From the NCBI GenBank assembly GCA_022826245.1, contig JAJDVG010000018.1, positions 1 to 64,000 on the forward strand: a stretch of DNA of 64,000 nt. Reading direction: 5' to 3'. The number at the start of each line of letters is the position of its first letter. Position 1 is the stretch's first letter. This DNA comes from Gammaproteobacteria bacterium (GTDB lineage Bacteria; Pseudomonadota; Gammaproteobacteria; Steroidobacterales; Rariloculaceae). The position numbers and the translations under genes were made by a program. The notes under the pieces are model-generated. The model ran no database searches. It was given only the letters and a program-made list of their open reading frames with translations, and was not told where the DNA came from. Positions 613 through 40,335 of the stretch are shown here, piece after piece.

Positions 613-2289
613 CTACAGTGTTGACACGCCCCGCTCCGGAACGCGGCAGTCAAATGAGCCGGCCATTGACGGATCCGCTCCCGAGTACTGCGTGACCTCG
701 GGCCATGGGCAGAGTTTCCGCGTTGCTCCGCGCAGTGCCTCGGGCGCAGCTTCGTTATCTTCCCTTACGGTGGCGATGAGCGGCCCCGGTGAAACATCCT
801 GTTCGACCCAATCGATGAGTGCGGTCAGGACGTCGAATCGGTCCGGTGCCACGCCGCCGGGGCCGTGCGGCATGCCCGGAACGGCGTAGAGGCGCGTGAA
901 GTCGGCCGCGTCGGGATTGTTGCCGAGCAGCGTTTCGAACCAGTTGACGGTGTCGCGGAACGAGAAGACCGGATCCGACACGCCGTGAAAGACGACGAGC
1001 TTGCCGCCGGCCGCTTCGAACGCTTCGAGGGTCGGATCGTCTGCGTCGGGCGGAGACATGATCGCCATGGCCGACTCGGGAAACTCGGCGCTGGTCGCGT
1101 CGACCTTGGGCGCGTCCGTGTCGAAGTCGAACGCCATCAGGAAGGCTTCGAGACTTGCCGGGTCGCCCGCCAGCGGCGTCGGCGGCGTCGTGAACACCTG
1201 GGCCAGCGAGCCCGCGCCCATCACGGCGATGATCGGCCGGTGGTCCCAGGCCGGCACGGGGCTTTCGAGTTTCCAGGAGCGCCAGCCGTCCGAAGCGATG
1301 CCGGCGTCCCAGTCCCACTCGCTGTAGAGCTGCTCACCCGCGCTGTTGCGTGGACCGCCGAGAATCCGGACGAGCGCCGCGACCTTGCGCTCCGGCAGGC
1401 AGTCGGCCGAGGCGCCGGAGGCGCAAACGAGCGACGTCGGATCGAAGGCGGCCTGGCAGGCGTCCACGTCGAAGATGAGCCCGTCGTCGAGACCGTCGAG
1501 CCCGTCGCAGGCGAGCAGAATCTGTTCGGCGACGAGGGCGAGTTCGTTGCGTGCGAAGGCTTCGGCCAGGCTGTCGCCAACGCTTCTGAAGTTCTGCACG
1601 TCCCAGGCGTGCTGAATCGCCGCACGCGGCAGCTTGAAGCCCGGATAACCGGCGATCAGGCCGTCGAAGGATTCCGGCATTCGACTCGCGGCGACGAGGG
1701 CGTGCCGGCCGCCGTTGGAACTTCCGAGCCCGTAGGAATATTGCACCGGCGCTTCGTAGTAGGCTTCGGCCAGCGCGACGGCGGCCGGATGCAGTTCGGC
1801 GACGGCGCCGTAGCCGTAGTCCCGGCGCGCCTCGAACTCGAGACCGAACATGTTGCCGCCCGAAAGCCCGGCTTCGGGATGCGCGGAACCGTCATGGCCG
1901 GCATCGCTCGACACGACGGCGAACCCGCGCGCCAGCGCGCTGTCGCCCGCGGGTTGTACATTGAGGCGGCCCAGGGCCGGAACCACCGCGCCGTCGTTGC
2001 CGCCGTTGAACTGGTGTGCGAACCGTCCGGTCCATTCGTCCGGCAGCCGGAGCTCGAACGAGATCGCGTAGGAGTGGCCGTCGCTGCCGACGCGCTCGGC
2101 CATTCGCCCACGTACGAGACAGTGGGCGATCGGCGAATCGTCGGATACCGGCACGGCCGTCGCTTCGGTAACGGTCATGCCGTCCGGAGCGAGCTCGCCG
2201 ACGGCGGCGCAGTCGACGGCCGCATGGCCTGCGAGCGGCATGAACTGTACGAGCAGGGCAAGCCCTGCGAGGCGGTGACGTCTTGTCAT
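613..2289 (-). CDS. Tannase/feruloyl esterase family protein, secreted
   Basis: A 558-residue exported esterase. An N-terminal signal peptide (RRHRLAGLALLVQF..., cleavage near AGHAA) precedes a tannase/feruloyl-esterase domain. The nucleophile motif GSSNGGR lies at residues 189-195, where the family usually has GCSTGGR, so Ser191 is the likely catalytic serine. A late PHGPGG stretch may hold the catalytic His. The family hydrolyses galloyl or hydroxycinnamoyl esters of plant and algal phenolics. The gene is the last of a minus-strand operon with the two small secreted proteins upstream (gaps of 31 and 13 bases). The exact ester is unknown, and the Cys-to-Ser change beside the motif is a minor deviation. 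Confidence 0.85.
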   Translation of the reverse strand: MTRRHRLAGLALLVQFMPLAGHAAVDCAAVGELAPDGMTVTEATAVPVSDDSPIAHCLVRGRMAERVGSDGHSYAISFELRLPDEWTGRFAHQFNGGNDGAVVPALGRLNVQPAGDSALARGFAVVSSDAGHDGSAHPEAGLSGGNMFGLEFEARRDYGYGAVAELHPAAVALAEAYYEAPVQYSYGLGSSNGGRHALVAASRMPESFDGLIAGYPGFKLPRAAIQHAWDVQNFRSVGDSLAEAFARNELALVAEQILLACDGLDGLDDGLIFDVDACQAAFDPTSLVCASGASADCLPERKVAALVRILGGPRNSAGEQLYSEWDWDAGIASDGWRSWKLESPVPAWDHRPIIAVMGAGSLAQVFTTPPTPLAGDPASLEAFLMAFDFDTDAPKVDATSAEFPESAMAIMSPPDADDPTLEAFEAAGGKLVVFHGVSDPVFSFRDTVNWFETLLGNNPDAADFTRLYAVPGMPHGPGGVAPDRFDVLTALIDWVEQDVSPGPLIATVREDNEAAPEALRGATRKLCPWPEVTQYSGADPSMAGSFDCRVPERGVSTL

Positions 2290-2320: not shown

Positions 2321-3022
2321 TCAGACCCCCGGCACGCCGTTCGGCCAGATGATCGGCTCGCAGGGATACGGGATGAACTCGAACGGATCGGTCCGGACGA
2401 ACGTACTGCTGCGAACGAACGGCCCCGTCAGGTATTGCGGATCCTCGACGATGGCGATGACCGTCAGGTAGTCGCCGTGGCGTACGTAGTGTTCCGTCAT
2501 TACTGCATTCTCGCTGTGAGGGACGCCGTTGCGGCGCAGATAACGCGGCCGCATGTGCGTGGTCACGACCGTCAGCGTCTCGCCGTCCCAGCGGGCCGTC
2601 GAATGTCCTTGCCACTCGAGCTCGCCGCTTGGCCACTCCCGGCCATCGAAGTAGAACCTGCGTTCCTGCTCCTGCAGCTCCATGCGCATCAGCAGCGTGT
2701 CGTCGTCCTCGTAGTCGAGGTGAAAGCGCACCGGGCCGCGCATGATATAGGCGGCGCCGTGCGGCGCGCACTGCAATTCCGGGATGTAATACTCGTCCGG
2801 GTCCCAGGCATCGGCCACGCGCCGCCCTTCGGCGTTCAGCGGAATGCCCGAGTAGTCGCCCTTGTGAGCGCCTTCGCCGCCGCGATAACGCGCATCCTCG
2901 TGGATCAGCGGTTCCCAATAGCCCGAGAAGTCCTGCTGTGCCGATGCCGAGTTGGCGGCGACGAGTGCCGCGAGACCGATGCCGGCGGCCAGCGCGCACC
3001 TTGATCGCTGTGTGATGTTCAT
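2321..3022 (-). CDS. Secreted protein of unknown function, homologous to the C-terminal half of the 26144-27160 product
   Basis: 233 residues with a signal peptide cleaved near NSASAQ (residue 28). The mature part begins SGYWEP and contains GHSTARWDGETLTV and VEDPQYLTGPF. By eye it aligns over most of its length with the C-terminal half of the protein at 26144-27160: EGRRVAD with EAGRAAQ, FYFDGREWP with VYMDGRPHP, GHSTARWDGETLTV with GHSIGWWEDDVLVV, and IVEDPQYLTGPF with TLEDPEYIVGSM. It sits 13 bases after the DUF6152 gene, whose product matches the N-terminal half of that same protein, so the two probably act together. No enzymatic motif is recognised. It may be a beta-rich binding protein. 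Confidence 0.8.
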   Translation of the reverse strand: MNITQRSRCALAAGIGLAALVAANSASAQQDFSGYWEPLIHEDARYRGGEGAHKGDYSGIPLNAEGRRVADAWDPDEYYIPELQCAPHGAAYIMRGPVRFHLDYEDDDTLLMRMELQEQERRFYFDGREWPSGELEWQGHSTARWDGETLTVVTTHMRPRYLRRNGVPHSENAVMTEHYVRHGDYLTVIAIVEDPQYLTGPFVRSSTFVRTDPFEFIPYPCEPIIWPNGVPGV

Positions 3023-3035
3023 GGTCGCTCCCCGA

Positions 3036-3440
3036 CTAGTCGTTGTTGCGAAAGCCGAAGCCGCGCCACTCCCAGCCGTCTTCGGCGCGCTCGACGCTGC
3101 TCAGCGTCATGATCCTGCGGCCTTCCCGGCCCGGCGATCCGGTGACGGTCAGGTGATCGCCCACGCTGACGCTCTCCGGCGACCAACCCCTGCGGGTCAT
3201 GGCAACGGTGTTGGGCAGTTCTACCGCCCAGGTTTCCGTTTCGCCGCTCGCCGTGGTGACGTCGAGGAAAATGAACGGATGCGGATTGCGCCACTGCCAG
3301 CTCGAGACGACACCCTCACGGGTGATTTCCTGCTCGATGTCGAAGTGCAGAGCGCGCGAATGATGTGCCGAGGCCGATAGCGCAACCGCCAGCAACGCTC
3401 CGGCGCCCGACAGGACCAGGAATCTGTTCGGATTGGACAT
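3036..3440 (-). CDS. DUF6152 family secreted protein
   Basis: 134 residues from an ATG at 3440. A signal peptide (FLVLSGAGALLAVALSASA) is followed directly by HHSRALHFD, the His-His-Ser start of the mature protein typical of this family. Later conserved blocks are WRNPHPFIFLDV, RRGWSPESVSVGDHLTV and GREGRRIMTL, read as a small beta-barrel of OB-like size. The function is unknown; the exposed N-terminal His pair could bind a metal, which is speculation. It is the first gene of the operon with the small secreted protein and the tannase. Two relatives lie in this window, at 26144 (fused) and 39755 (alone). Confidence 0.85.
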   Translation of the reverse strand: MSNPNRFLVLSGAGALLAVALSASAHHSRALHFDIEQEITREGVVSSWQWRNPHPFIFLDVTTASGETETWAVELPNTVAMTRRGWSPESVSVGDHLTVTGSPGREGRRIMTLSSVERAEDGWEWRGFGFRNND

Positions 3441-3650: not shown

Positions 3651-5759
3651 ATGACTGCATCGACGGATTTCCGGCTCACACCTGCGGCTGCCGCTGCGTT
3701 GGCGCTTGCGTGCGCTTCGGGCGCGCAAGCCCAGGACGTGGACATCGACGCCGACGACATCGGCGGCACGGTCACGAGCGAGAACGGCCCCGAAGCCGGC
3801 GTCTGGGTCGTCGCGGAGACCGACGACTTCGAGACCCGCTACGCGAAGATCGTCGTGACCGATGACGACGGCCGCTACGTGGTCCCCGATCTGCCCGAGG
3901 CCGACTACGAGGTCTGGGTACGCGGCTACGGCCTCGCGGACTCCGACAAGGCGGCTGCCAGGCCTGGCGACGCGCTCGATCTGACCGCGGTCGTCGCGCC
4001 CAATGCCGAGGTGGCTGCGCGCGTCTATCCGGCTGCCGCGTGGTACGCGATGATGAATCTGCCGGACGAAAGCGAAGTCGCGCATCTCCCGGGCGGCATG
4101 AACGAATACCTCGCCGTCATGAAGAACCAGACCTGCGTCGGCTGCCACCAGATGGGCCAGCTCTCGACGCGCACGTTCCCGGACGCGTTCAGCGACATCG
4201 AATCGTCCGAGGAACGCTGGATCCGACGCGTGCAGTCCGGTCAGGCGGCGCCGCAGATGATCGGGCCGCTCGCCCAGCGGCTCAACGGCGTGCCGTTCAG
4301 GTATCTCGCCGACTGGACGGACCGTATAGCCGCCGGCGAAACGCCGTCGTACATTCCCGAACGGCCGCAGGGTCTCGAGCGCAACGTCGTCGCAACGGTC
4401 AGGGACTGGGCGGACGAGAAGTCCTACCTGCACGATCTGTCGACGACCGATCGCCGCGATCCGACCGTCAACGCCTACGGCAGAATCTACGGCGCGCCGG
4501 AACTGAGCACCGACAACTTTCCCATTCTCGATCCGGTGACGAACACCGACACGACGTTCTTCGCGACCGTGCTCGACCCCGACACTCCGACGACGAACGA
4601 CGATCCGATCGGCATGCCGTCGCCGTACTGGGGCGAGGAGCGGATCTGGGACAGCCGCGCCAATGCCCATAACCCGATGCTCGATCAGGATGGCCGTGTC
4701 TGGTACACGGCGCGTGTGCGCGGCCCGGACAATCCCGATTTCTGCCGCGAAGGCTCGGACCATCCTTCGGCGCAACTCTTCCCGACCACGCGTACGGGCA
4801 GGCACCTGTCCGTCTACGACCAGGAGACCGGCGAGTACACGCCCATCCCGACCTGTTTCGGGACGCATCACCTGCAGTTCGCCGAGGATGCGTACAACAC
4901 GCTGTGGACGAGCGGCGGCGGCGATGTGGTCGGCTGGCTCAACACGGATCAGTTCCTCGAGACCGGCGACTACGTGAGTTCGCAGGGCTGGGCGCCGGCG
5001 ATCATCGACACCAACGGCAACGGCCGGCGCGACGACTGGGTCGAACCCGGCGAGCCGCTGGATCCCGATCTCGACATGCGAATCCCGGCGCGTTTCTACG
5101 CCATCATGCCGAATCCGTCCGACGGCTCGATCTGGGGATCGTGGAGCTTCACGTTCCCGGGCGGCATCGTGCGGCTCGAACCGGGCCCGAACCCGCCCGA
5201 GACGACCCTTGCCGAGGCCTACAGCGTGCCGCTGCCCGGCTTCGCCTCGCGCGGCGCGGACATCGACCGCAACGGCGTGGTCTGGGTGTCGCTCGGCAGC
5301 GGGCACCTCGGTGAGTTCGACCGCAGCAAGTGCGAGGGGCCGCTGAACGGTCCGACGGCGACGGGCGATCATTGTCCCGAAGGCTGGACCTTCCACCGCT
5401 TCCCGGGTCCGGGCTTCCCCGGGCTGCCCGAGTACAGCGTCGAGTCGAGCTATTACACCTGGGTGGACCAGCGCAACGCTTCCGGACTCGGCGCCAACAC
5501 GCCGATCGCGACAGCCAATCTCTTCGACGGCGTGCACGCCTTCGTCGACGGCGAGTTCGTGACGATGCGGATTCCGTACCCGCTCGGCTTCTACACCAAG
5601 GGCTTCGAGGGCCGCATCGACGATCCCGACGCCGGCTGGAAGGGCCGCGGCCTCTGGGTACCGAGCGGCGACCGCACACCGTGGCTCATGGAAGGCGGGC
5701 AGGGCACGCGACCGCTCGTGGTGCATTTCCAGGTTCGTCCCGACCCGTTGGCGAAGTAG
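3651..5759 (+). CDS. Secreted protein with carboxypeptidase-regulatory-like, cytochrome c and beta-propeller regions
   Basis: 702 residues. The ATG at 3651 is preceded by an AAGGGGGA ribosome site. A signal peptide ends near GAQAQ (28). Residues about 37-95 resemble a carboxypeptidase-regulatory/SD-repeat beta sandwich (GGTVTSENGPEAGVWVVAE, DDDGRYVVPDLPEADYEVWVRGYG). A haem-binding CVGCH lies at 162-166. The remaining part has repeated W/GR-rich strands (GRVWYTARVRGPD, NTLWTSGGGDVVGW, GVVWVSLGSGHLGEFD), as in NHL/streptogramin-lyase-like propellers. It is probably a periplasmic redox protein, with the electron partner unknown. The DUF4159 gene follows after 26 bases, and the gene diverges from the tannase operon. 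Confidence 0.75.
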   Translation: MTASTDFRLTPAAAAALALACASGAQAQDVDIDADDIGGTVTSENGPEAGVWVVAETDDFETRYAKIVVTDDDGRYVVPDLPEADYEVWVRGYGLADSDKAAARPGDALDLTAVVAPNAEVAARVYPAAAWYAMMNLPDESEVAHLPGGMNEYLAVMKNQTCVGCHQMGQLSTRTFPDAFSDIESSEERWIRRVQSGQAAPQMIGPLAQRLNGVPFRYLADWTDRIAAGETPSYIPERPQGLERNVVATVRDWADEKSYLHDLSTTDRRDPTVNAYGRIYGAPELSTDNFPILDPVTNTDTTFFATVLDPDTPTTNDDPIGMPSPYWGEERIWDSRANAHNPMLDQDGRVWYTARVRGPDNPDFCREGSDHPSAQLFPTTRTGRHLSVYDQETGEYTPIPTCFGTHHLQFAEDAYNTLWTSGGGDVVGWLNTDQFLETGDYVSSQGWAPAIIDTNGNGRRDDWVEPGEPLDPDLDMRIPARFYAIMPNPSDGSIWGSWSFTFPGGIVRLEPGPNPPETTLAEAYSVPLPGFASRGADIDRNGVVWVSLGSGHLGEFDRSKCEGPLNGPTATGDHCPEGWTFHRFPGPGFPGLPEYSVESSYYTWVDQRNASGLGANTPIATANLFDGVHAFVDGEFVTMRIPYPLGFYTKGFEGRIDDPDAGWKGRGLWVPSGDRTPWLMEGGQGTRPLVVHFQVRPDPLAK

Positions 5760-20268: not shown

Positions 20269-22164
20269 ATGGCGCTCGTCAAACCACCGTCCCGGACAAC
20301 CGTGTCGAAGCACCGGGGGAACTCAAGAACATCCGGACCCTGTGTAAGCTGCGTCTCGGCTTTGCGGCGCCGTTACGTTGCCATGGCAGTGTCCATGTCC
20401 GTTGCCGCTGTCTGCAACGCAGCGTTCGTTTCCGTCGTGACGGCTCAGCCAGTTGCCGAACGCCACGTTTTCTTTGGCGATCTGCATCTGCACACGAGCT
20501 ATTCTCTCGACGCCGCGGCCGTGAAGACCGAGACCACGCCGGACGACGCGTATCGGTTCGCCAAGGGTGAGCCCGTCAGGTATTACGACAGAACCGTCGT
20601 ACGCCACACGCCGCTTGATTTCCTCGCCGTGACCGACCATGCGGAATACCTCGGCAACGTTCAACTCGCGTTGCAGGGCGACATCGACCTGCCCGGCGAC
20701 GGCTGGCAACGGCTGTTCGCGCATGACGGCGGTCCGGTCATGTTCGAGTTCATGGCCCGGGTCAACCGCGGGCTGTTTGGAGAAGACACGCCTGGGCTCT
20801 CGAATCCGGCCCTCGTCGCCGGTCACTGGCGCGACATCATCGACGCGGCGGAACGTCATTACGAACCCGGACGATTCACGAGTTTCGTCGGATTCGAATA
20901 CTCGCCGAACATTCGGGCGACCCCATCGGCCCACCTGCATCGCAACGTCATTTTTCGCGGCCCGGACTACCCGGACATGCCGTTCGCGTCGACCGATTCC
21001 CTGAATCCCGAGTCGCTTTGGGCCTATGCCGACGCCAATCGAGAACGGGGCATCGATTCGCTCATGATCCCGCACAACACCAATATCAGTTACGGGCGGG
21101 CTTTCAGCTTCGAAGACGTGGACGGTGAGCCGATCGATGCCGAATACGCTGCAACCCGGGCGCGCAATGAGCCGCTGGTCGAAATCACGCAGAACAAGGG
21201 CACGACCGAAACGCGGCCTGAAATCTCGCCCGACGACGAGTTCGCCGACTTCGAACTGATCGACGCCGGCAGGGACCAGCCGGGCGGAAGTTACGTTCGG
21301 CCCGGTCTCCTGCGCGGTCTGGAAATTGCGGAGCGAATCGGGGTCAATCCTTTCGAACAGGGTTTCATCGGGTCGACGGATTTTCATTCCGGCCTTTCGA
21401 CAAGCGAAGAGGACAACTTCCCGGGCGCTTTGGGTCTCAGCGACAGTCACCGGGATCCGGTCATGATCCTGCAGGATCTTTCGCCGATCATCGGCAGCCC
21501 GCTGGCGGCGCTCAGTGCGTCGGGTATCGCCGGTGTGTGGGCCGAAGAAAATACCCGCGAGTCGATCTTCGATGCGCTTCGGAGGCGCGAGGCGTTTGCG
21601 ACGTCGGGACCGCTGATTCGGGTGCGCATGTTCGCCGGTTGGGGCGACGCCAATGAACTTGGGGACGGGCCCGACTGGGCCGGTCGGGCTTACGAGTGGG
21701 GCGTCCCGATGGGGGGCGCGCTTGCCGGGCGAGAAGAACCGCGGGGGCCGGAATTCGTCGTACACGCATCGAAAGATCCGTTCTCCGGCAACCTGGATCG
21801 GATCCAGATCGTCAAACTCTGGCGCCGTAACGGCCGCTCGTTCGAAAGGGTCTACGATGTCGCATGGTCGCCCGACCGCGCCGTCGACGACGCAACGGGC
21901 CGCCTGGAGCCCGTCGGCAATACGGTGGATGCCGAAACTGCTACCTACGAAAATACGATCGGGGCGGCAGAGCTCTTCGGGACGTGGCGCGATCCTGACT
22001 TCGATCCGGCCGAGAGAGCGCTCTACTACGCGCGCGTGATCGAGATACCGACACCGCGCTGGGCCACGTATCTGTCGGTCGAGAGCGGCGTTCCTCTGGG
22101 TGAAGGCATCCCGGCATGGCTTCAGGAGCGAGCCTGGACGTCGCCAGTCTATTACACGCCGTAA
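20269..22164 (+). CDS. DUF3604 family exported protein (paralogue 1)
   Basis: 631 residues from the ATG at 20269; starts at a TTG near 20361 or the ATG at 20383 would give a more usual signal peptide (RRRYVAMAVSMSVAAVCNAAFVSVVTAQ), so the start is uncertain. The mature protein begins HVFFGDLHLHTSYSLDA (His pair near residue 73), followed by TDHAEYLG, SFVGFEYS, PHNTN and GSTDFHSG. These His/Asp clusters resemble a PHP-like metal-dependent phosphoesterase or amidohydrolase site. The family is uncharacterised. It shares most motifs with the next gene, 14 bases downstream. Confidence 0.85.
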   Translation: MALVKPPSRTTVSKHRGNSRTSGPCVSCVSALRRRYVAMAVSMSVAAVCNAAFVSVVTAQPVAERHVFFGDLHLHTSYSLDAAAVKTETTPDDAYRFAKGEPVRYYDRTVVRHTPLDFLAVTDHAEYLGNVQLALQGDIDLPGDGWQRLFAHDGGPVMFEFMARVNRGLFGEDTPGLSNPALVAGHWRDIIDAAERHYEPGRFTSFVGFEYSPNIRATPSAHLHRNVIFRGPDYPDMPFASTDSLNPESLWAYADANRERGIDSLMIPHNTNISYGRAFSFEDVDGEPIDAEYAATRARNEPLVEITQNKGTTETRPEISPDDEFADFELIDAGRDQPGGSYVRPGLLRGLEIAERIGVNPFEQGFIGSTDFHSGLSTSEEDNFPGALGLSDSHRDPVMILQDLSPIIGSPLAALSASGIAGVWAEENTRESIFDALRRREAFATSGPLIRVRMFAGWGDANELGDGPDWAGRAYEWGVPMGGALAGREEPRGPEFVVHASKDPFSGNLDRIQIVKLWRRNGRSFERVYDVAWSPDRAVDDATGRLEPVGNTVDAETATYENTIGAAELFGTWRDPDFDPAERALYYARVIEIPTPRWATYLSVESGVPLGEGIPAWLQERAWTSPVYYTP

Positions 22165-22178
22165 GCCATGACCTGAAG

Positions 22179-24191
22179 ATGCCCAAAGATGCTGTCGCCG
22201 CAACGGTCGGCCGTCTGAATGCGCCGCGAAATCCTGTCGGCGCAATGCTCGTCGGTCTGAAGACGCTGCAGATCGCAGCCGTCGCGGCGGCCGCTGCCCC
22301 GAAGACGCCGCGCAACGCGGTCGCCACAGCGGTTGTTTGCCTGCTTGCGGCTTGTGGACAGGGGCGAGACGCCTTCGAGGACGGCAACGATCAGGCCCCG
22401 GCTACCGGGCTTGCCGATGAAGTCAATGCTGCGGCGATGCCCGAACAGGCAGAGGATCGGGTCATCCTCTGGGGCGACACCCATCTGCATACCCTGAACT
22501 CCACCGACGCTTACGAAAGCGGTATGGCCAACGCGGATATCGACACGGCGTTTCGCTATGCGAAGGGTTTCCCGGTCGTTCATCCGCGCACCGGTCTCAG
22601 GATCCGGATCGACGAGCCGCTCGATTTCCTTGTCGTTGCGGATCATGCGGAAATGCTCGGCATGTTCCCGCGGCTTCGGGACCGCGATCCCGACGTGCTC
22701 GCAACCGCGGGCGGACAGGAGCTGTTGGCGCTCTTTGAGGAGGGAGCGGACACGGCTTTCGGCGCTCTCGTCAGGCTGGCGGTGGACCCGACGGACAGCG
22801 CCATTGCCGACGACTTGAACGCGCCGTCGATACGGCAGACGAGCTGGGATGCTCAGGTCGATGCCGCGGAGCGTCACAACGACCCCGGGAACTTCACGGC
22901 GCTCAACGGCTGGGAGTGGAGTTCGACCCCGGGCGGTCTGAATCTGCACCGGGTGGTCTTCACGCCGGCCGATGCCGATACGGCCAGGCAGTTCCTGCCG
23001 TTCAGCAATTTCGACAGCATCGACCCGGAAGACCTGTGGGCGTATCTGCGTGACGTACGCGAGCGCACGGGCACCGACTTTGTCGCCATACCTCACAACT
23101 CCAACCTCTCGAACGGACTCATGTTTCAGACGGTGCGCGAGGGCGGACTCCCGTTCGAATCCGACTATGCTCGCGAGCGCATGGCCTGGGAACCGGTCGT
23201 CGAGATAACGCAGTACAAGGGAACGTCGGAGACCCATCCGGCACTCTCGCCCACGGACGAGTTTGCCGACTTCGAGATTCGGAACATTCTGCTGACGGGC
23301 GCTCCGGCGATGCCGGAACCCGGTTCATACGTTCGCAGCGCGCTGCTCCAGGGTCTGTCTCAGGAAGCCGATATCGGCGTCAATCCGTTCCAGTTCGGGC
23401 TGATCGGCGCCAGCGACAGTCACACCGGGTTCGCGTCCGTCACGGAAACCGACTTCCTCGGCAAGTCGGGGGAGGATCTGCTGCCGGAGGAACGCGCTGC
23501 CGGGAATCTGGGCGACGTCTTCGGCGGCTGGCAGGTTTCCGCGTCGGGTCTCGCGGCCGTCTGGGCCGACCGAAACGACCGCCAAGCCGTTTTCGACGCG
23601 TTCAAGCGGCGCGAAGTGTACGCGACGACGGGGCCGCGCATCGCCCTGCGCCTGTTCGCCGGTTACGACTTCGCGCCGGGCGATGAGGATGCCCGCGATC
23701 TGGGCATGGAAGGCTATCGGCGGGGCGTGCCGATGGGCGGCCTGCTGCTCCCCGCGGAAGACGGCGCCGCTCCGGCATTCGTCATCGCGGCGGCAAGGGA
23801 CCCGGCTTCGGCACTGCTCGACCGGATTCAGGTGGTCAAGGGGTGGCGCGATGCCGCAGGCGCTCTTCACGAGAGAATTTTCGACGTTGCCTGGTCCGGC
23901 CAACGTGAAGTCGGCGCCGACGGCAACCTCGAACCGGTTGGCGACACCGTCGACTCGGCAACGTCACGGTACACGAACACCATCGGTGCGGCGGAACTCG
24001 CGGCGCATTGGCGCGACCCTGAATTCGATCCGGCGGAAGCGGCGTTTTACTACGTTCGCGTGCTCGAGATCCCGACGCCGCGCCACCACGTCTCCGAAGC
24101 GCTGGCGCTTGGACTGGATCCGGCGGCGCTGGACTTCGCGACAACGATCCAGGAACGCGCGTTTTCGTCTCCCGTATGGTATTCGCCGTGA
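22179..24191 (+). CDS. DUF3604 family lipoprotein (paralogue 2)
   Basis: 670 residues from an ATG at 22179. A lipobox LLAAC lies near residue 60, unusually deep, after a stretch built from degenerate 42-base repeats, so the true start may be later. The DUF3604 body has GDTHLHTLNSTDA, VADHAEMLG, NGWEWSS, PHNSN and GASDSHTGF. The C-terminal third pairs closely with paralogue 1 (FDAFKRREVYATTGP, DRIQVVKGW, NTIGAAELAAHWRDPEFDPAEAAFYYVRVLEIPTP, in pieces). It is probably membrane anchored in the periplasm. Its stop shares one base with the start of the foldase gene. Confidence 0.85.
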   Translation: MPKDAVAATVGRLNAPRNPVGAMLVGLKTLQIAAVAAAAAPKTPRNAVATAVVCLLAACGQGRDAFEDGNDQAPATGLADEVNAAAMPEQAEDRVILWGDTHLHTLNSTDAYESGMANADIDTAFRYAKGFPVVHPRTGLRIRIDEPLDFLVVADHAEMLGMFPRLRDRDPDVLATAGGQELLALFEEGADTAFGALVRLAVDPTDSAIADDLNAPSIRQTSWDAQVDAAERHNDPGNFTALNGWEWSSTPGGLNLHRVVFTPADADTARQFLPFSNFDSIDPEDLWAYLRDVRERTGTDFVAIPHNSNLSNGLMFQTVREGGLPFESDYARERMAWEPVVEITQYKGTSETHPALSPTDEFADFEIRNILLTGAPAMPEPGSYVRSALLQGLSQEADIGVNPFQFGLIGASDSHTGFASVTETDFLGKSGEDLLPEERAAGNLGDVFGGWQVSASGLAAVWADRNDRQAVFDAFKRREVYATTGPRIALRLFAGYDFAPGDEDARDLGMEGYRRGVPMGGLLLPAEDGAAPAFVIAAARDPASALLDRIQVVKGWRDAAGALHERIFDVAWSGQREVGADGNLEPVGDTVDSATSRYTNTIGAAELAAHWRDPEFDPAEAAFYYVRVLEIPTPRHHVSEALALGLDPAALDFATTIQERAFSSPVWYSP

Positions 24192-25063
24192 TGCTGCGCA
24201 AGTTCATCAGTGAGCCGTTGACCCACTTCCTGCTGGCCGGGGCGTTACTCTTCGTCATTGTTTCGCTGTCGCAGGGGCTCCGTGACGACGATCGCACGAT
24301 CACAGTCACCGAGGACGATCTCCTGGAATACTTGCAGGGCCGCGCGCAGGTTTACGATGAAGAGACGTTCGCCGAACTCGTCGATTCGATGTCCGCGGAC
24401 GAGCGCCAGGCGCTGATTCTGGACGTTGCGAGCCAGGAAGCCCTCTACCGCGAGGGTCTGGCCATCAGCCTGCCGGATGTCGACCCGCTGGTGCGTCTGC
24501 GCACGGTTCAGCAGATGCGCCTGTTGCTGATGGAGGAGGCTGCCGCAAACGTCTCGATTGGCGATCGGGACATTGAACGTCATTACGATGAACATCGTGA
24601 CGACTACCGCGTGCCGCCGCGGATCACGTTCACCCACGTGTTCGTCAACGCGAGAGAGGGCGCCGATCGGAGTACGGCGAGGGCGCGAGCATTGCTCGGT
24701 GAACTGCGCGCCAGCGACGTTCCGGCCACGCAAAGCGGCCGGCATGGCGACCGCTTCCTGTATCAGCGCAACTATGCCGACGTGAGCGATCGGCAGGTGC
24801 GATCGCATTTCGGCGACGGTTTCGCAGCCGAGGTGTTCGAACTGGCTCCCGGCGAGTGGAGCGATCCCCTGGCTTCCGATCACGGCTGGCACCTGGTGTT
24901 CGTCACCAGGAAAGCGGGAGCGCGCCTACCCGAGCTTGCGGAGATCGCCGAGCGCGTGCGCGACGACGCGCTGGCGGCGAAACGCGAAGCCGCAGCGCGT
25001 GAAGCGCTCGAGTCGTTGCTGGATGAGTACGAAGTCGTTGTCGCCGTTGACGCGTCGCAATGA
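24191..25063 (+). CDS. Membrane-anchored parvulin-type peptidyl-prolyl isomerase
   Basis: 290 residues. One N-terminal membrane segment (FLLAGALLFVIVSLSQG) anchors it to the inner membrane with the rest outside. A SurA/PpiC-like helical N-domain is followed by a parvulin core: RITFTHVFVNAR, the FGDGFAAEVFELAPGEWSDPLASDHGWHLVFVTRK block in pieces, with the conserved S-x-x-G-WH end. It probably folds or chaperones exported proteins; in this operon the natural clients are the two DUF3604 proteins or the HupE protein. Start and stop overlap both neighbours (TGATG and ATGA), a sign of strict co-production. Confidence 0.88.
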   Translation: MLRKFISEPLTHFLLAGALLFVIVSLSQGLRDDDRTITVTEDDLLEYLQGRAQVYDEETFAELVDSMSADERQALILDVASQEALYREGLAISLPDVDPLVRLRTVQQMRLLLMEEAAANVSIGDRDIERHYDEHRDDYRVPPRITFTHVFVNAREGADRSTARARALLGELRASDVPATQSGRHGDRFLYQRNYADVSDRQVRSHFGDGFAAEVFELAPGEWSDPLASDHGWHLVFVTRKAGARLPELAEIAERVRDDALAAKREAAAREALESLLDEYEVVVAVDASQ

Positions 25064-26049
25064 TGGCCGGTCGCGTTCTCGCCCTGATCCTGTGCATGTT
25101 GGTGTCGATCTCCGTGCGCGCGGACGACAGCCGCCCTTTGATGGTGATCATCGCGGCGCAGGGCGATGGCGTTTATCGCACGACCTGGAAACTGCCGGTC
25201 AACATAGAGCCCCGGCACCTGCCGCAACTCGTCGCGCCGGTCGGCTGCGAGATCGCCGGCGACCGCAGGTCGTGGTCCGATGCCCTTGGGTATTGGGCCG
25301 AAGAACAATGGCGCTGCGAGAACGGTCTGTCCGGCGCCGCCGTCGCGATCGATTACCCGTTCGCGAACCCGAACCTGGCGACGATTGCCCGCGTCAGATC
25401 GGAGGACAACGCCGAAAGGACGCTGTTCGCCCCGCCGCGGGAATCGCGACTGCTGATTCCGTCGGACAACCGCGGCGGCAACATCTTCGCCGACTTTCTG
25501 GTGCTCGGTTTCGAGCACATCTGGAAGGGGCTGGACCACCTTCTGTTCGTTGGCGGACTGATCTTCATTGCGCGAACCCGACGCGCGGTGATTACGACCA
25601 TCACCGGGTTCACGATCGCCCACTCGATCACGCTGGCGCTTTCGGCGCTCGACATGGTCCGGCTGCCGATCGCTGCGATCGAGAGCGCCATCGCGTTGAG
25701 CATAGTTTTTCTCGCGATCGAGATCGTCAAGGGTCCGCGCGATACGCTGACCTGGCGGAGGCCACTCGTCGTGTCCGGCAGCTTCGGTCTCTTGCACGGT
25801 TTCGGATTTGCCGCCGTGTTGCGCGAGATCGGTTTGCCTCAGGCGGGACTGGTGCAAGGCCTTTTCGCGTTCAATGTCGGCATAGAATTGGGTCAGATTC
25901 TGTTCGCGGCAGTCCTGATATCGATTCTTGCCGCAGTGCGGCGCATCCCTGTGGGCCGTCTGCGGGTCGATCTCGCACAGCGCCTTGCCGGCTACGCCAT
26001 TGGCGTAACATCGAGTTTCTGGCTGATCACCAGGGTGCTCGTTACGTGA
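25060..26049 (+). CDS. HupE/UreJ family membrane protein with exported N-terminal domain
   Basis: 329 residues. A signal peptide (VLALILCMLVSISVRA) leads to a roughly 120-residue exported region. A six-helix membrane part starts near residue 140: GFEHIWKGLDHLLFVGGLIF, TITGFTIAHSITLALSAL, SFGLLHGFGFAAVL and FNVGIELGQILFA. The repeated His and Glu in these helices are typical of HupE/UreJ_2 proteins, which are linked to nickel or cobalt movement in characterised relatives. The role here is unknown. No hydrogenase or urease genes are near, so the partner is more likely the DUF3604 proteins, which carry metal-site-like motifs. It overlaps the foldase gene by four bases. Confidence 0.85.
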   Translation: MMAGRVLALILCMLVSISVRADDSRPLMVIIAAQGDGVYRTTWKLPVNIEPRHLPQLVAPVGCEIAGDRRSWSDALGYWAEEQWRCENGLSGAAVAIDYPFANPNLATIARVRSEDNAERTLFAPPRESRLLIPSDNRGGNIFADFLVLGFEHIWKGLDHLLFVGGLIFIARTRRAVITTITGFTIAHSITLALSALDMVRLPIAAIESAIALSIVFLAIEIVKGPRDTLTWRRPLVVSGSFGLLHGFGFAAVLREIGLPQAGLVQGLFAFNVGIELGQILFAAVLISILAAVRRIPVGRLRVDLAQRLAGYAIGVTSSFWLITRVLVT

Positions 26050-26143: not shown

Positions 26144-27160
26144 ATGAGAAACGACACTCCATGGGTCCTGGCGGTCCTGCTGTTCGGCGCGACAGCGAAT
26201 GCCCATCACAGCGATGCCGCGCTCGACATGAATGCCCGGGTCGCCTTCCGGGGCACGGTCAGCGAATACAGCATGCGGAATCCGCACAGCTACTTCACGG
26301 TCGACGTGACGGGCGACGACGGTACGGCGGTGACCTGGACGGTACAGATGGCCTCTGCGATCTCGATCCGGCGCAGCGGGTGGACGCCCGACTCGCTGGC
26401 TGTCGGCGACGAGGTCAGCGTCGCGGTGCGTCCGGCCCGGGACGGTCGAGCCTACGGCCTGCTCGCGGCGATAGAGAAGGACGGCGTAGCGATCTCCAAC
26501 GAACGCGTGTCGGGACGCGTAACGGCGAGCACGACGACGATCGAGGGTCGTTGGTTCATCGACCGCGAAAGCCTCGGCGACGATTATCCCGGCGGCCTTG
26601 ACCAGCTCATGGCGCGCGAGCTGACGTTGACGGAAGCCGGCCGCGCGGCGCAGGCCGCATTCGATCAGAATGCAGACGACAACCCCGAGCTTGCGTGCCT
26701 TTCGAAACCGACGCCGGGCGGACTCGTTTATACCGACCTCTATCCCATGGAGATCGAATTCCTCGATGGCGGCGAGATCATCGTGATCCGCAGCCAGTAT
26801 TTCGATCAGGAGCGGATCGTTTACATGGACGGACGGCCGCACCCGTCGGACGAGCGGATGTATGAGGGCCATTCGATCGGCTGGTGGGAGGACGATGTGC
26901 TCGTCGTCGATACGGTCAATTTTACCGACAATCGCTCGCCCTACCAGAACGGCATACCCTCGGGCGCGCAAAAGCATGTCGTCGAGCGCTATCGGCTCCA
27001 CTCCGACGGCACGCGTTTGCGCGTCGAGTTCACGCTCGAGGACCCCGAGTACATCGTCGGTTCCATGACGCACGCACGCGACCTGGTGTATTCGCCGGAG
27101 ATGGACATGACACCCTTCAACTGCGATCTGGAAACGACACGGCGGTTCGTGCCGAGGTAG
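26144..27160 (+). CDS. DUF6152 domain fused to a second secreted domain
   Basis: 338 residues from an ATG at 26144 with AGGAG seven bases upstream. A signal peptide ends NAHHS. Residues about 20-120 are a DUF6152 domain (AHHSDAALDMNARVAFRGTV, MRNPHSYFTVDV, RRSGWTPDSLAVGDEV). Residues about 125-338 align with the separate protein at 2321-3022 (VYMDGRPHP, GHSIGWWEDDVLVV, EFTLEDPEYIVGSM). It is therefore a natural fusion of two families encoded side by side elsewhere in this window. No catalytic motif is recognised. The gene starts 94 bases after the HupE gene and may be a separate unit. Confidence 0.85.
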   Translation: MRNDTPWVLAVLLFGATANAHHSDAALDMNARVAFRGTVSEYSMRNPHSYFTVDVTGDDGTAVTWTVQMASAISIRRSGWTPDSLAVGDEVSVAVRPARDGRAYGLLAAIEKDGVAISNERVSGRVTASTTTIEGRWFIDRESLGDDYPGGLDQLMARELTLTEAGRAAQAAFDQNADDNPELACLSKPTPGGLVYTDLYPMEIEFLDGGEIIVIRSQYFDQERIVYMDGRPHPSDERMYEGHSIGWWEDDVLVVDTVNFTDNRSPYQNGIPSGAQKHVVERYRLHSDGTRLRVEFTLEDPEYIVGSMTHARDLVYSPEMDMTPFNCDLETTRRFVPR

Positions 27161-36565: not shown

Positions 36566-38044
36566 TTAGTCGGAACGCATGAGCGAGCGGAGCAGGGCGG
36601 CCGTGTCCTCGCGAACGACCCCTTCCTGGCCCGAGAAGCCGAAGCCGCCGGCGAGCCCGAGGGACGTGTCGAGCGGCGTGAAGCCGTTGTTGTCCGCAGC
36701 GCCGGGATCGGCGCCGCGGGCGGCGAGCGCGGCGATCACCTCGTCGTAGCCCTGCATCGCTGCACCGTGCAGGGGCGTGCGGCCGCGTGAATCCGCTGCG
36801 TTGATGTCGAGGCCGAGCGCCAGCAGGATGTCGATCGCTTCAATGGCTTGCGCTTCGGTCTTGTAGCGGCCGGTCGTGTCCTGTTCCGCCGTGCCGACGC
36901 CCGCCGCGAGCATCAGGGCATCGACGCCCCGGTTCGTGGCGAGGGAGGGATCGGCGCCGTATTCGAGCAGCAGATGCATCGCGGGGATGTCGCCGGCCTT
37001 GGCGGCGCGCATGAGCGGGGTCGTGCCGGTCCCGAGCACCGTGTCGTTGCCGCGGTCGAGCTTGGCCCGGTAGGGCGCCTGCCGTTCGAGCCGGACGTTC
37101 GGGTCGGCGCCGCGTTCGAGCAGCATGCGCATGACGTCGAGCGCCGTGTGTTCGTTGTCGATGACTTCCGGCGCCGGTCGGTTCGATTTCGGCATCGTGT
37201 TGAAATCGGCGGCGGCGTAGAGGGCGCTTCGGCCCGTGTAATCGACGAGCTGCGGGTCGGTCCCGGCTTCGACGAGCGCCGCGGCGGTGTCGTAGTGGCC
37301 GTTGATCAGTGCCGAGACGACGGGACTGATCCCGTCCGGCGTCGTCATGTCGACATCGGCGCCGCGCTCGACGAGCACCCCGATGCACTCCACGCATCCT
37401 TCGCGGGCGGCGAACAGCAGCGGCGTCATGCCGCCCGGCGGCAGCCACTTCGCGCGCGGCTCGGCGGTGCGCTGCCGTTCCCATTCGACGGTGTTCGAGA
37501 CGGCGTTGACGGCGGCTCCGGCCTCGATCAGCGCCGCGATCATCGCCGGATGGCCCTGTGCCGCCGCCCACATGAGCGCCGTCTGGCCGTGCCAGCCTTC
37601 GCGGGCGTCCACTTCGGCGCCGGCCTCGATGAGGACGGCGGCAGCTTCCACATCGCCCGTGCGCGCGGCCGTCATGAGCACGGTCTCGCCTTCGCTGCCG
37701 ACTTCGTTGGCCCGGGCGCCCGCGTCGAGCAGCAGCTCGATCATGCGCGCACTGCCGTTGACGGCCGCGAGATGGAGCGGCGTCACGCCGTAACGGTTTG
37801 CGACCGTGGCGTCGGCGCCGGCCCGGACGAGTTCCGCAGCGAGATCGACGTCGTCGTTCTGCACGGCCCAGTGCAGTGCCGTGGTGCCGTCGGTTTCGGC
37901 GACGTTCGGATCGGCCTGCTCGGCGAGCAGCGCGAGTGCCGCGGACAGGTTGCCCGATTTGACTGCGGTGACGAGTGAATCCGCTTGCGCTAACGCTGCG
38001 GTGCTGATGATCAACGTAGCTGTTGCTGCACAAACTTTTCGCAT
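36566..38044 (-). CDS. Exported ankyrin-repeat protein
   Basis: 492 residues from an ATG at 38044 with a signal peptide ending ALAQ. About ten ankyrin units cover nearly all the rest: DGTTALHWAVQNDDVDLAAELVRAGAD, YGVTPLHLAAVNGSARMIELLLDAGA, GQTALMWAAAQGHPAMIAALIEAGA, RTPLHGAAMQGYDEVIAALAARGAD and others (pieces). It is a protein-protein or ligand-binding solenoid in the periplasm. The upstream gene on the same strand encodes a DUF1552 protein, a pairing seen in related bacteria where a cytochrome-type DUF1592 protein is also present. That third gene is missing here. Confidence 0.9.
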   Translation of the reverse strand: MRKVCAATATLIISTAALAQADSLVTAVKSGNLSAALALLAEQADPNVAETDGTTALHWAVQNDDVDLAAELVRAGADATVANRYGVTPLHLAAVNGSARMIELLLDAGARANEVGSEGETVLMTAARTGDVEAAAVLIEAGAEVDAREGWHGQTALMWAAAQGHPAMIAALIEAGAAVNAVSNTVEWERQRTAEPRAKWLPPGGMTPLLFAAREGCVECIGVLVERGADVDMTTPDGISPVVSALINGHYDTAAALVEAGTDPQLVDYTGRSALYAAADFNTMPKSNRPAPEVIDNEHTALDVMRMLLERGADPNVRLERQAPYRAKLDRGNDTVLGTGTTPLMRAAKAGDIPAMHLLLEYGADPSLATNRGVDALMLAAGVGTAEQDTTGRYKTEAQAIEAIDILLALGLDINAADSRGRTPLHGAAMQGYDEVIAALAARGADPGAADNNGFTPLDTSLGLAGGFGFSGQEGVVREDTAALLRSLMRSD

Positions 38045-38068
38045 GAGAAAAGAAGCCACGGTCACTTT

Positions 38069-38121
38069 CCGGGGAGTCGCGCTACCGTTCGCTTGAGACA
38101 CGCGGTGAAAACGTCCCCGGA
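38069..38121. repeat. Hairpin repeat, copy C (shortened)
   Basis: GAGTCGCGCTACCGTTCGCTTGAGACACGCGGTGAA at 38074-38109, read in parts, matches the left half of copy B (14640-14675) with few changes. Outer CCGGGGA (38069-38075) and TCCCCGG (38114-38120) can pair. It lies in the 82-base gap between the DUF1552 stop and the ankyrin start, so it is inside a probable operon, unlike copy B. Confidence 0.6.
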
Positions 38122-38126
38122 GGAGG

Positions 38127-39452
38127 CTAGACACTCATTTCGGCGATCGTGCCCGTGCTGTCGCCGAGGCTGTCGATCGCCACGTCCGTGTTGTGGAGCA
38201 TGCTCAGCAACAGGTTGGTCATCGGCGTGTGGTCGATGCAACGGATATGCTGGCCGCCGTTCAGGCGGTGCGAGCCGCCGACGACGACGTTCGGCAGCGG
38301 GAAGTGATCGTGAGCGTTGCTGTTGCTCATGTTGCTGCCGTAGAGGATCAGCGAATTGTCGAGCAGCGAGCCGTCCCCGTCGGGGATCGCATCGAGCTTG
38401 TCGAGAAATCTCGCGAAGAGCCCCACGTGATATCTCTGGATGCGCGCGTTCATTGCCATCTTCTCGGCGCGGTTCTGATGGTGGGAGACCGCGTGATGGC
38501 CTTCGCTGACGCCGACCTGCGTATAGGTCCGGTTGCTGATCTCTCGCGCCAGCATGAACGTGAAGATCCTGGTGATGTCCGCCTGCCAGGCGAGCGCCAG
38601 CAGGTCGAACATCATGTCGACATGGTCTTCGTACTCGAACGGAATGCCGGGAGGCGCTTCGGGGATGACGAGGTCGCTGTTGGCTGCGATCTGCGCGTCG
38701 GCGCGCTCGAGTCGCCGTTCTATTTCCCGGACGGCCTCGAGATAAAGCTCGAGCGTCTGCCGGTCGTGCGCGCCCAGCGTGCTCTGCAGCGATTTCGCCT
38801 GCCGGCCCAGCGCGTCGAGGATGCTGCTGTCCTCGCGGGCACGGGCGAGCCTCGCCTCCACGCTGCCGCCCTGTCCGAACATTCGCTCGAAGACCTTGCG
38901 CGGATTGATTTCCATCGGCATCGGCGTCGTGGGCGTTCGCCACGACAGCGTGTTCATGTAGATGCAGCCGTAGTCGCGGTCGCAGGCCCCGATGAGCCCG
39001 GAATGATCCTCGGTTGCAAGCTCCATCGACGGCAGCATCGTGTCGCCGCCGATCGCGGCGGCGGCAATCTGGTCGGCCGTCACGCCCGCATAAGCGTCGA
39101 CGCCCTGTGTGGGCTTGGGCCGCACGCCGCTCAGCCAGGTCGTCGGGCTCAGCGAGTGCACTGCGGTTGAGTCCGCAGCGCGATGGTGCAGCCCGCTGAC
39201 CACATTGAGGCGCTCGCGATAGGGCGCCAGCGGCTCCAGGGTGGTCTTGAACGTAAAGCCCCGACCGTCTTCGTCGGGTGTCCAGTGGTCCATGATCGCG
39301 CCGTGCGGCACGTAGACGAAACCGAGCCGTTGCGTTGACGCGTCGGATTGCGCTAAGGCCGGAACCATGGCATCCAGCAGCGGCAATGCGATGGATGCGC
39401 CGAGACCACGTAGAACGGTGCGGCGCGGCAAGTGTTTCTGCGTGATGAACAT
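38127..39452 (-). CDS. DUF1552 family protein, Tat-exported
   Basis: 441 residues from an ATG at 39452. The N-terminus LPRRTVLRGLGASIALPLLDAM is a twin-arginine signal. The body has FVYVPHGAIMDHWTPDEDG, TTWLSGVRPKPT, SMELATEDHSGLIGACDRDYGCIYMNTLSWR, and the end LLDNSLILYGSNMSNSNAHDHFPLP, in pieces, all typical of DUF1552. The fold is related to alkaline-phosphatase/sulfatase proteins (DUF1501-like). The function is unknown. DUF1552 genes usually neighbour a DUF1592/DUF1588 cytochrome gene, which is absent within this window. It diverges from the DUF6152 gene at 39755. Confidence 0.88.
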   Translation of the reverse strand: MFITQKHLPRRTVLRGLGASIALPLLDAMVPALAQSDASTQRLGFVYVPHGAIMDHWTPDEDGRGFTFKTTLEPLAPYRERLNVVSGLHHRAADSTAVHSLSPTTWLSGVRPKPTQGVDAYAGVTADQIAAAAIGGDTMLPSMELATEDHSGLIGACDRDYGCIYMNTLSWRTPTTPMPMEINPRKVFERMFGQGGSVEARLARAREDSSILDALGRQAKSLQSTLGAHDRQTLELYLEAVREIERRLERADAQIAANSDLVIPEAPPGIPFEYEDHVDMMFDLLALAWQADITRIFTFMLAREISNRTYTQVGVSEGHHAVSHHQNRAEKMAMNARIQRYHVGLFARFLDKLDAIPDGDGSLLDNSLILYGSNMSNSNAHDHFPLPNVVVGGSHRLNGGQHIRCIDHTPMTNLLLSMLHNTDVAIDSLGDSTGTIAEMSV

Positions 39453-39754
39453 GCGTGTTTCCGTCCGCCCGATTGCCGGGTTCGCGCTCGCGACAGGCTG
39501 GAACCCGGAACTGTCAACAAGCATTTGAAAGCAATGCAGATTAAATCAAATCCGGCGATTGGCGGCAATGCTCGGGCGCCACTGCAGGAGTTTCGCGATC
39601 CGGCGATCGCACACGGCCGGATGCGCCATCGTCCTGCCGTTGGCGTTTCGGCAGCGGCGGCTTATCATCGGGTTGTGGTCGGAGCAGCGCCGGCGTGCGT
39701 TGCGCGACGGCGGCTGGCCGCAGCATCGTTGGCGATCGGGGAGTCGGAAGGACA
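39453..39754. other. Divergent intergenic region without a gene
   Basis: About 300 bases between the DUF1552 start (minus) and the DUF6152 start (plus). Short open frames in it have atypical composition and no recognisable product. An AT-richer stretch around 39516-39550 (with ATTTGA and TCAAAT as a loose inverted pair) is the most likely promoter region for the minus-strand operon, but no clear -35/-10 pair could be fixed. Confidence 0.4.
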
Positions 39755-40120
39755 ATGAGAAAGCTGATCCGCATATTCGTCTGTTGCGCGTTCGCGGCGT
39801 TGACGATGCAGGCCTGGGCACACCACTCGGCGGCCCAGTTCGACTTCGGACAACGCGTGCCCGTCGCCGGGACGGTCAGGCTCATCGAAGTGCGCAACCC
39901 GCACATCAAGCTGATTCTCGACGTGAGCGACGATGCCGGTCAGACACGCGAAATCGAATACGAAGGCCATAGCCGCAACAACGTCTTTCGCCGCGGCTGG
40001 CGGCCGAATTCGGTCGGCGTCGGCGACGAGATCACGATCGAGATCGCGCCGCTGCGCGACGGCAGCGACGACGGCGGCTATATCACCGGGTTCAGGCTCG
40101 CCGACGGCACGGAATTCTGA
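39755..40120 (+). CDS. DUF6152 family secreted protein (stand-alone copy)
   Basis: 121 residues from an ATG at 39755 with GGAAGG seven bases upstream. The signal peptide (IRIFVCCAFAALTMQAWA) is followed by HHSAAQFDFGQRVPVAGTV, then VRNPHIKLILDVSDDAG, FRRGWRPNSVGVGDEITI and LRDGSDDGGYITGFRL. It is the third member of the family in the window and has no attached second domain. It is followed after about 215 bases by a gene for a large secreted propeller-like protein, so the pattern of a DUF6152 gene near a secreted propeller or enzyme is repeated. Function unknown. Confidence 0.85.
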   Translation: MRKLIRIFVCCAFAALTMQAWAHHSAAQFDFGQRVPVAGTVRLIEVRNPHIKLILDVSDDAGQTREIEYEGHSRNNVFRRGWRPNSVGVGDEITIEIAPLRDGSDDGGYITGFRLADGTEF

Positions 40121-40335
40121 AGCGCAAACGAGCCCGAGCCCCTGCTCCGAGTGTGGGTAGCTCGTTGCCTACGATGCACGTGCCTGCCCGCACTGCGGCG
40201 CGCGGCATCCGAGCAGCGACCGAGGGAGCGACCCGCTGCGGTCCGGCCGATGATTCAGCCCGCCCGACAGGCGTGCTCAGCGTTTCCGAGCCCGTCATTG
40301 CCTGGTTCCAGTTCGATCATCCGAGGAGTGACGTG

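Follow-up and report, generated by a model that had tools for sequence, protein, structure and literature searches.

A histidine at the mature N-terminus of a protein can chelate transition metals on its own, and joining it to a second one yields the histidine brace (PMC10952591). A 2025 search for proteins with an N-terminal histidine reported that DUF4198, DUF6702, and two anglerases (Ang-1/Ang-2) bind Ni or Cu (PMC12537917); the four families that it characterised do not include DUF6152. Among the papers searched, none dealt with DUF6152, on DUF6644, or on an N-terminal histidine combined with an OB-fold and copper.

The window, that is, the whole stretch of 64,000 nucleotides analysed here, carries a DUF6152 domain (D) both as a separate gene beside one for a second domain (C) and fused to C in a single protein. 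The features concerned are:

613..2289, minus strand: tannase/feruloyl-esterase-family gene (PF07519, E 2e-107), downstream of D and C
2321..3022, minus strand: C gene (product P0002, 233 aa), secreted-looking, without a Pfam family
3036..3440, minus strand: D gene, encoding the DUF6152 protein P0001 (134 aa; Pfam PF19649, E 2e-28)
25060..26049, plus strand: HupE/UreJ_2 permease gene, directly 5' of the fused gene
26144..27160, plus strand: fused D-C gene (product P0003, 338 aa), with BLASTP matches to both split proteins
26204..26482, plus strand: D domain of fused P0003 (PF19649, E 2.3e-25)
26546..27133, plus strand: C domain of fused P0003, a predicted calycin barrel (stand-alone C profile, E 3.6e-37)
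39749..40117, plus strand: third DUF6152 gene of the window, with the junction MRKLIRIFVCCAFAALTMQAWA/HHSAAQF (PF19649, 83 bits at 39794-40075)

The first-pass annotation had read the two adjacent genes as the two halves of the fused protein and, as judged by sequence comparison, this observation is confirmed, with the open reading frames positioned as claimed. P0001 matches the N-terminal half of P0003 (BLASTP 37% over 104 residues, residues 10-112, E 7e-24), and P0002 matches the C-terminal half (29% over 170 residues, residues 160-328, E 3e-19), except that the latter match starts near residue 160 rather than at the proposed residue 125; the stretch before residue ~160, which holds a GxW motif, is joined to C only by profile and structure. 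The homology was to be regarded as refuted if the C-terminal similarity lost significance in a profile comparison, a test that it survives, since a profile built from stand-alone C genes only retrieves fused C at E 3.6e-37. Split and fused D score 98.8 and 89 bits against the DUF6152 model (PF19649), for which the cut-off is 27. The C part is covered by neither a Pfam nor an NCBIfam model; NCBIfam gave no match for any of D, C, and the fused protein, a Pfam search of 60 C members gave nothing of note and no calycin family, and in sequence searches of solved structures the C profile had no match up to E 10 and the fused protein none of note.

The D, C, and tannase genes share a strand and are separated by 13 and ~31 bp, the latter gap containing a Shine-Dalgarno-like AAGGGAG before the tannase gene, and this order is kept in two congeners. 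The tannase gene, whose family had been assigned correctly, thus probably shares an operon with the pair, as had been proposed, but the link is limited to this locus and the genus: no tannase homologue was found at the other D/C loci fetched from the source genome, and the tannase was ruled out as a general D/C partner. Nor did the HupE/UreJ_2 permease hold up as a partner conserved with the fused gene, since the two are adjacent only within the genus. The mature start of this permease is not a histidine, in contrast to the anglerases. The third DUF6152 gene (AWA/HHSAAQF) has no adjacent C gene; its neighbors are a DUF1552-like gene (38130-39524), which resembles one elsewhere in the genome (L043:9460-10803), and a long open reading frame (40153-42294). 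Elsewhere in the window, two DUF3604 genes stand in succession at 20371-24191 on the plus strand (E 1e-189 and 3e-214), and a gene for a PPIC-type isomerase comes after the second of them. A secreted-looking ankyrin-repeat protein is encoded at 36569-38134 on the minus strand; four relatives of it lie close to other D/C loci in the source genome.

Both families are larger in scale than the first-pass annotation indicated, with ~90 D and ~115 C copies in the source genome (3.6 Mb, 96.5% complete), where copies were gathered region by region. We detected 91 DUF6152 domains, all but one above the Pfam cut-off, and 116 profile rows for C, a few of which are fragments (110 C domains lay in the regions fetched). 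By open reading frame, the census comprised 25 D-C fusions, 66 genes with D alone, 83 with C alone, and one C-C. Of the 66 D genes that stand alone, 50 or 51 have a same-strand C gene within 300 bp, in both gene orders, and 67/91 D domains have one within 600 bp (2.7% expected); 16 D genes and about one-third of C genes lack a partner next to them, which counts against reading D and C as a unit. Six C matches span one in-frame stop (source-genome contigs C44:47109, C28:70476, C2:105958, C9:30033, C48:140813, and C2:95487); some of these may be degraded copies, and in others the search may have joined separate gene ends. In all, the two families, neither of which has a known function, account for ~175 genes, probably ~5% of the genome; 149 of these genes encode a single domain, 25 are fused, and one carries two C domains.

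The expansion belongs to the bacterial family of the source genome. DUF6152 was found in 21/21 family relatives searched, in nearly all of them in dozens of copies (range 4 to at least 95), was absent from other families of the order, and was present in 26/248 other Pseudomonadota genomes, mostly as a single copy. A scan of genome contigs with the fused protein alone returned 12 loci, all in metagenome-assembled genomes, and the named relatives are metagenome-assembled gammaproteobacteria or unclassified proteobacteria.

Several lines of evidence, namely the 25 fusions, ~50 adjacent pairs, matched divergence, co-occurrence, and a confident model of the fused protein, strongly support the functional partnership of D and C that the first-pass annotation suggested. 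On the C tree, the fused state requires five changes, at least three of which are forced by well-supported branches. Distances among D and among C domains are correlated within pairs (Mantel r 0.66 for fused and 0.54 for 51 split pairs, p ~0.0005), although joint duplication alone can yield such a correlation, which therefore demonstrates co-inheritance and not contact; since only single chains were modelled, contact within split pairs remains an inference. Across 249 Pseudomonadota genomes, C occurred in exactly six besides the source's own, which belong to two other families of the phylum; all six carry a canonical D (p 2e-11), D adjoins C in most of their loci, and no genome had C without canonical D. 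Sec-like signals were also more frequent in stand-alone C proteins (73/84) than in control open reading frames (94/409), by what is admittedly a crude test.

The genes surrounding D and C, which include those for tannase, PQQ dehydrogenase, amidohydrolase, sulfatase, dienelactone hydrolase, and FAD oxidase, suggest a catabolic role. Of these catabolic types, enrichment statistics cover PQQ dehydrogenases only, which are weakly enriched (10/23 places within 3 kb of D/C versus 19% expected, p 0.006 uncorrected). TonB receptors were also scored, were not enriched (11/44 within 3 kb versus 19% expected), and were on that basis ruled out as a conserved neighbor. PADLOC returned no match, and a function in defense was not supported.

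Two histidines are invariant in 91/91 D domains of the source genome and are directly preceded in 88 of them by an AxA-like signal-peptidase site, a pattern that scores far lower at other offsets (65 at +5, then 51 at -5), the first of these values being due to downstream context of the HHSFA/AEFD type that imitates AxA. The junctions in the window are ASA/HHS, ANA/HHS, and AWA/HHS. Among 183 non-redundant D domains, HH is present in all 181 that are complete, distant single-copy relatives of the HHGW type included, and the two lacking it are cut off at the N-terminus; an AxA-type site precedes HH in nearly all, and a PH motif follows 25-28 residues later, also in nearly all, one copy having PNH in place of NPH. 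Across 77 fused proteins, in which mean column identity is ~30%, the only invariant residues of D are H1, H2, P27, H28, and G68; the other invariant positions are W117, C165, R204, G222, and E261. Because HH directly follows an AxA-type site, mature D very probably begins with histidine, although cleavage is inferred from AxA statistics, without SignalP or proteomics. P0001 would accordingly comprise a signal peptide, a mature HHS... start, and a predicted OB-fold with the NPH motif, and the D domain of P0003 would carry His1-His2 and N26-P27-H28 in its mature form, with His2 and His28, both invariant, as possible further ligands besides His1. To judge from these residues, D looks like an N-terminal-histidine metalloprotein, metal binding itself being inferred.

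Structure prediction assigned a fold to each domain. The AlphaFold2 model of mature P0003 (model m1ed89690a88f), built with 77 homologues, reached pLDDT 93.8 and pTM 0.89, the latter, over two domains, indicating a confident mutual arrangement of D and C. Its D part (residues 10-94) is predicted to be an OB-fold, a five-stranded barrel (PriB, Z 8.9 and rmsd 2.6 over 81 residues; SSB, Z 8.5); within D, the first ten residues are modelled with the least certainty (pLDDT 80). Foldseek ranked lysyl-tRNA synthetases first for the fused protein, but these matches reflect OB-fold likeness only (TM 0.2) and were rejected. The C part (residues 110-298) resembles a FABP/CRABP barrel (CRABP2, Z 9.8 over 127 residues), and the split-gene C modelled alone (model mc58a8b4496c4; pLDDT 92.4, pTM 0.89) matched over residues 1-191 proteins of the FABP/CRBP/NanoLuc type (CRBP1, FABP, NanoLuc) in 50/50 of the matches listed, at Z 9.0-9.8. 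P0002 would thus consist of a signal peptide, a GxW motif (FSGYW), and a predicted calycin/FABP-like barrel with two near-invariant cysteines; in 110 C domains, the G and W of GxW, a motif of the first strand, are conserved in 90% and 93%, and the two cysteines, which we infer to form a periplasmic disulphide, in 99% of copies. These models predict for C a FABP-like calycin fold, an up-and-down beta-barrel that spans the whole domain and for which Pfam has no family. Counting against this assignment, the fold matches reach only moderate Z values (9-10), and C is not tied to FABPs by any sequence profile.

We tentatively interpret D and C as a periplasmic metal-plus-ligand module, a reading to which we give somewhat less than even confidence. 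D and C would be the two secreted halves of one functional unit. Signal peptidase would cut directly before the invariant HH to leave a His-His N-terminus on mature D, and His1 (through amine and imidazole), with His2 and/or the histidine of NPH, would form an N-terminal-histidine transition-metal site; the metal, whose binding and identity are inferred, is most likely copper. The disulphide-stabilised barrel of C would bind a small organic molecule, and in the fused protein the metal domain would dock on this barrel, an arrangement that we infer for the operon-encoded pairs as well. Such a module may act, in a metal-dependent manner, on small organic molecules in the periplasm, or capture them. 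Some 75 pairs point to diversity of ligand; duplication of the pair to this number, among different catabolic genes, would have diversified the ligand and not the metal. Oxidation is favored over capture as the inferred outcome only because ~90 copies exceed the needs of metal trafficking and PQQ dehydrogenases are somewhat enriched nearby. The more specific proposition, that these proteins are a new class of secreted N-terminal-histidine copper enzymes, in which an OB-fold copper domain is joined to a ligand-selecting calycin barrel and ~75 pairs make up a periplasmic oxidative toolbox, is speculative and on present evidence improbable.

The alternative that survives best, although we consider it doubtful, is that D binds a metal in the manner of an anglerase or CopC and C binds the organic part of a metal chelate, such that the unit scavenges or buffers without catalysis and its many copies match many natural ligands. 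The context of single-copy D speaks for this reading. In nearly all single-copy loci examined, the gene after an HHGW-type D encodes DUF6644, a multi-span membrane protein, which occurred in 18/248 genomes, all 18 of which also hold DUF6152 (p 1.5e-21). This HHGW subfamily is without C altogether, and the source genome retains a single D-DUF6644 pair (L045:3941-4330 and 4334-4822, contig C9), whose D is the genome's sole DUF6152 of the HHGW type. By analogy, the arrangement recalls CopC/CopD and YcnI/YcnJ, and also anglerase-HupE pairs; the permease gene that immediately precedes the fused gene points in the same direction, and the characterised N-terminal-histidine domains (DUF4198, DUF6702, and Ang-1/2), which bind Ni or Cu, show no notable oxidase activity (PMC12537917). 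Nonetheless, DUF6644 showed no significant profile match to CopD (PF05425; hhalign probability 0.5%, 22 columns) and homology between them was not upheld, the permease adjacency does not reach beyond the genus, TonB receptors are not enriched nearby, and the copy number lies far above what metal supply would need.

It is also possible, though unlikely, that D has no metal site at all and is an adaptor OB-fold whose HH and NPH motifs contact C, DUF6644, or the export machinery, in a unit that binds a ligand or senses. The conserved Pro and Gly around the motif could mark an interface, and in the expanded genome metal genes are not a consistent neighbor, but a mature N-terminal histidine in every complete copy, even in the subfamily without C, is hard to explain by contact with C. 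A largely selfish or neutral expansion, in which a dispensable secreted pair was duplicated in tandem and its copies hardly specialised in function, is very unlikely: tandem D/C arrays and copies with an internal stop do occur, but HH, NPH, and the two cysteines are nearly all retained at 65-75% median divergence, which indicates purifying selection, and almost every family relative searched maintains dozens of copies. The inferred N-terminal histidines of mature D supply the first concrete and cheaply testable hypothesis for DUF6152, that of a metal site, and open to experiment the otherwise opaque genes that an entire uncultured gammaproteobacterial family carries.

Compared with known systems, D is a member of Pfam DUF6152 (PF19649), well above the gathering score, in a family without assigned function of which the fused C is not part. 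The predicted C barrel, with its N-terminal F/GxW and helical lid, resembles the fatty-acid- and retinoid-binding proteins of the calycin group, from which C differs in being bacterial and secreted, in its two conserved cysteines, and in having no detectable sequence relation to solved structures. Single-copy D with DUF6644 shares with the CopC-CopD and YcnI-YcnJ copper systems a small periplasmic N-terminal-histidine protein beside an integral membrane protein (PMC8424229); it differs in that DUF6644 lacks a CopD profile match and the expanded D pairs with C instead. With the histidine-brace and other N-terminal-histidine proteins (LPMOs, CopC, DUF4198, DUF6702, and Ang-1/Ang-2), D shares secretion, an invariant histidine directly after the inferred cleavage site, and a further conserved histidine (PMC10952591, PMC12537917). 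D differs from those metalloproteins in its predicted OB-fold, in place of an Ig-like fold or beta-sandwich, in its two adjacent N-terminal histidines, and in its putative calycin-barrel partner (PMC10952591, PMC12537917). As far as the literature examined goes, an OB-fold would be new for N-terminal-histidine metalloproteins, and a metal site in D, if real, would extend N-terminal-histidine metal chemistry to this fold.
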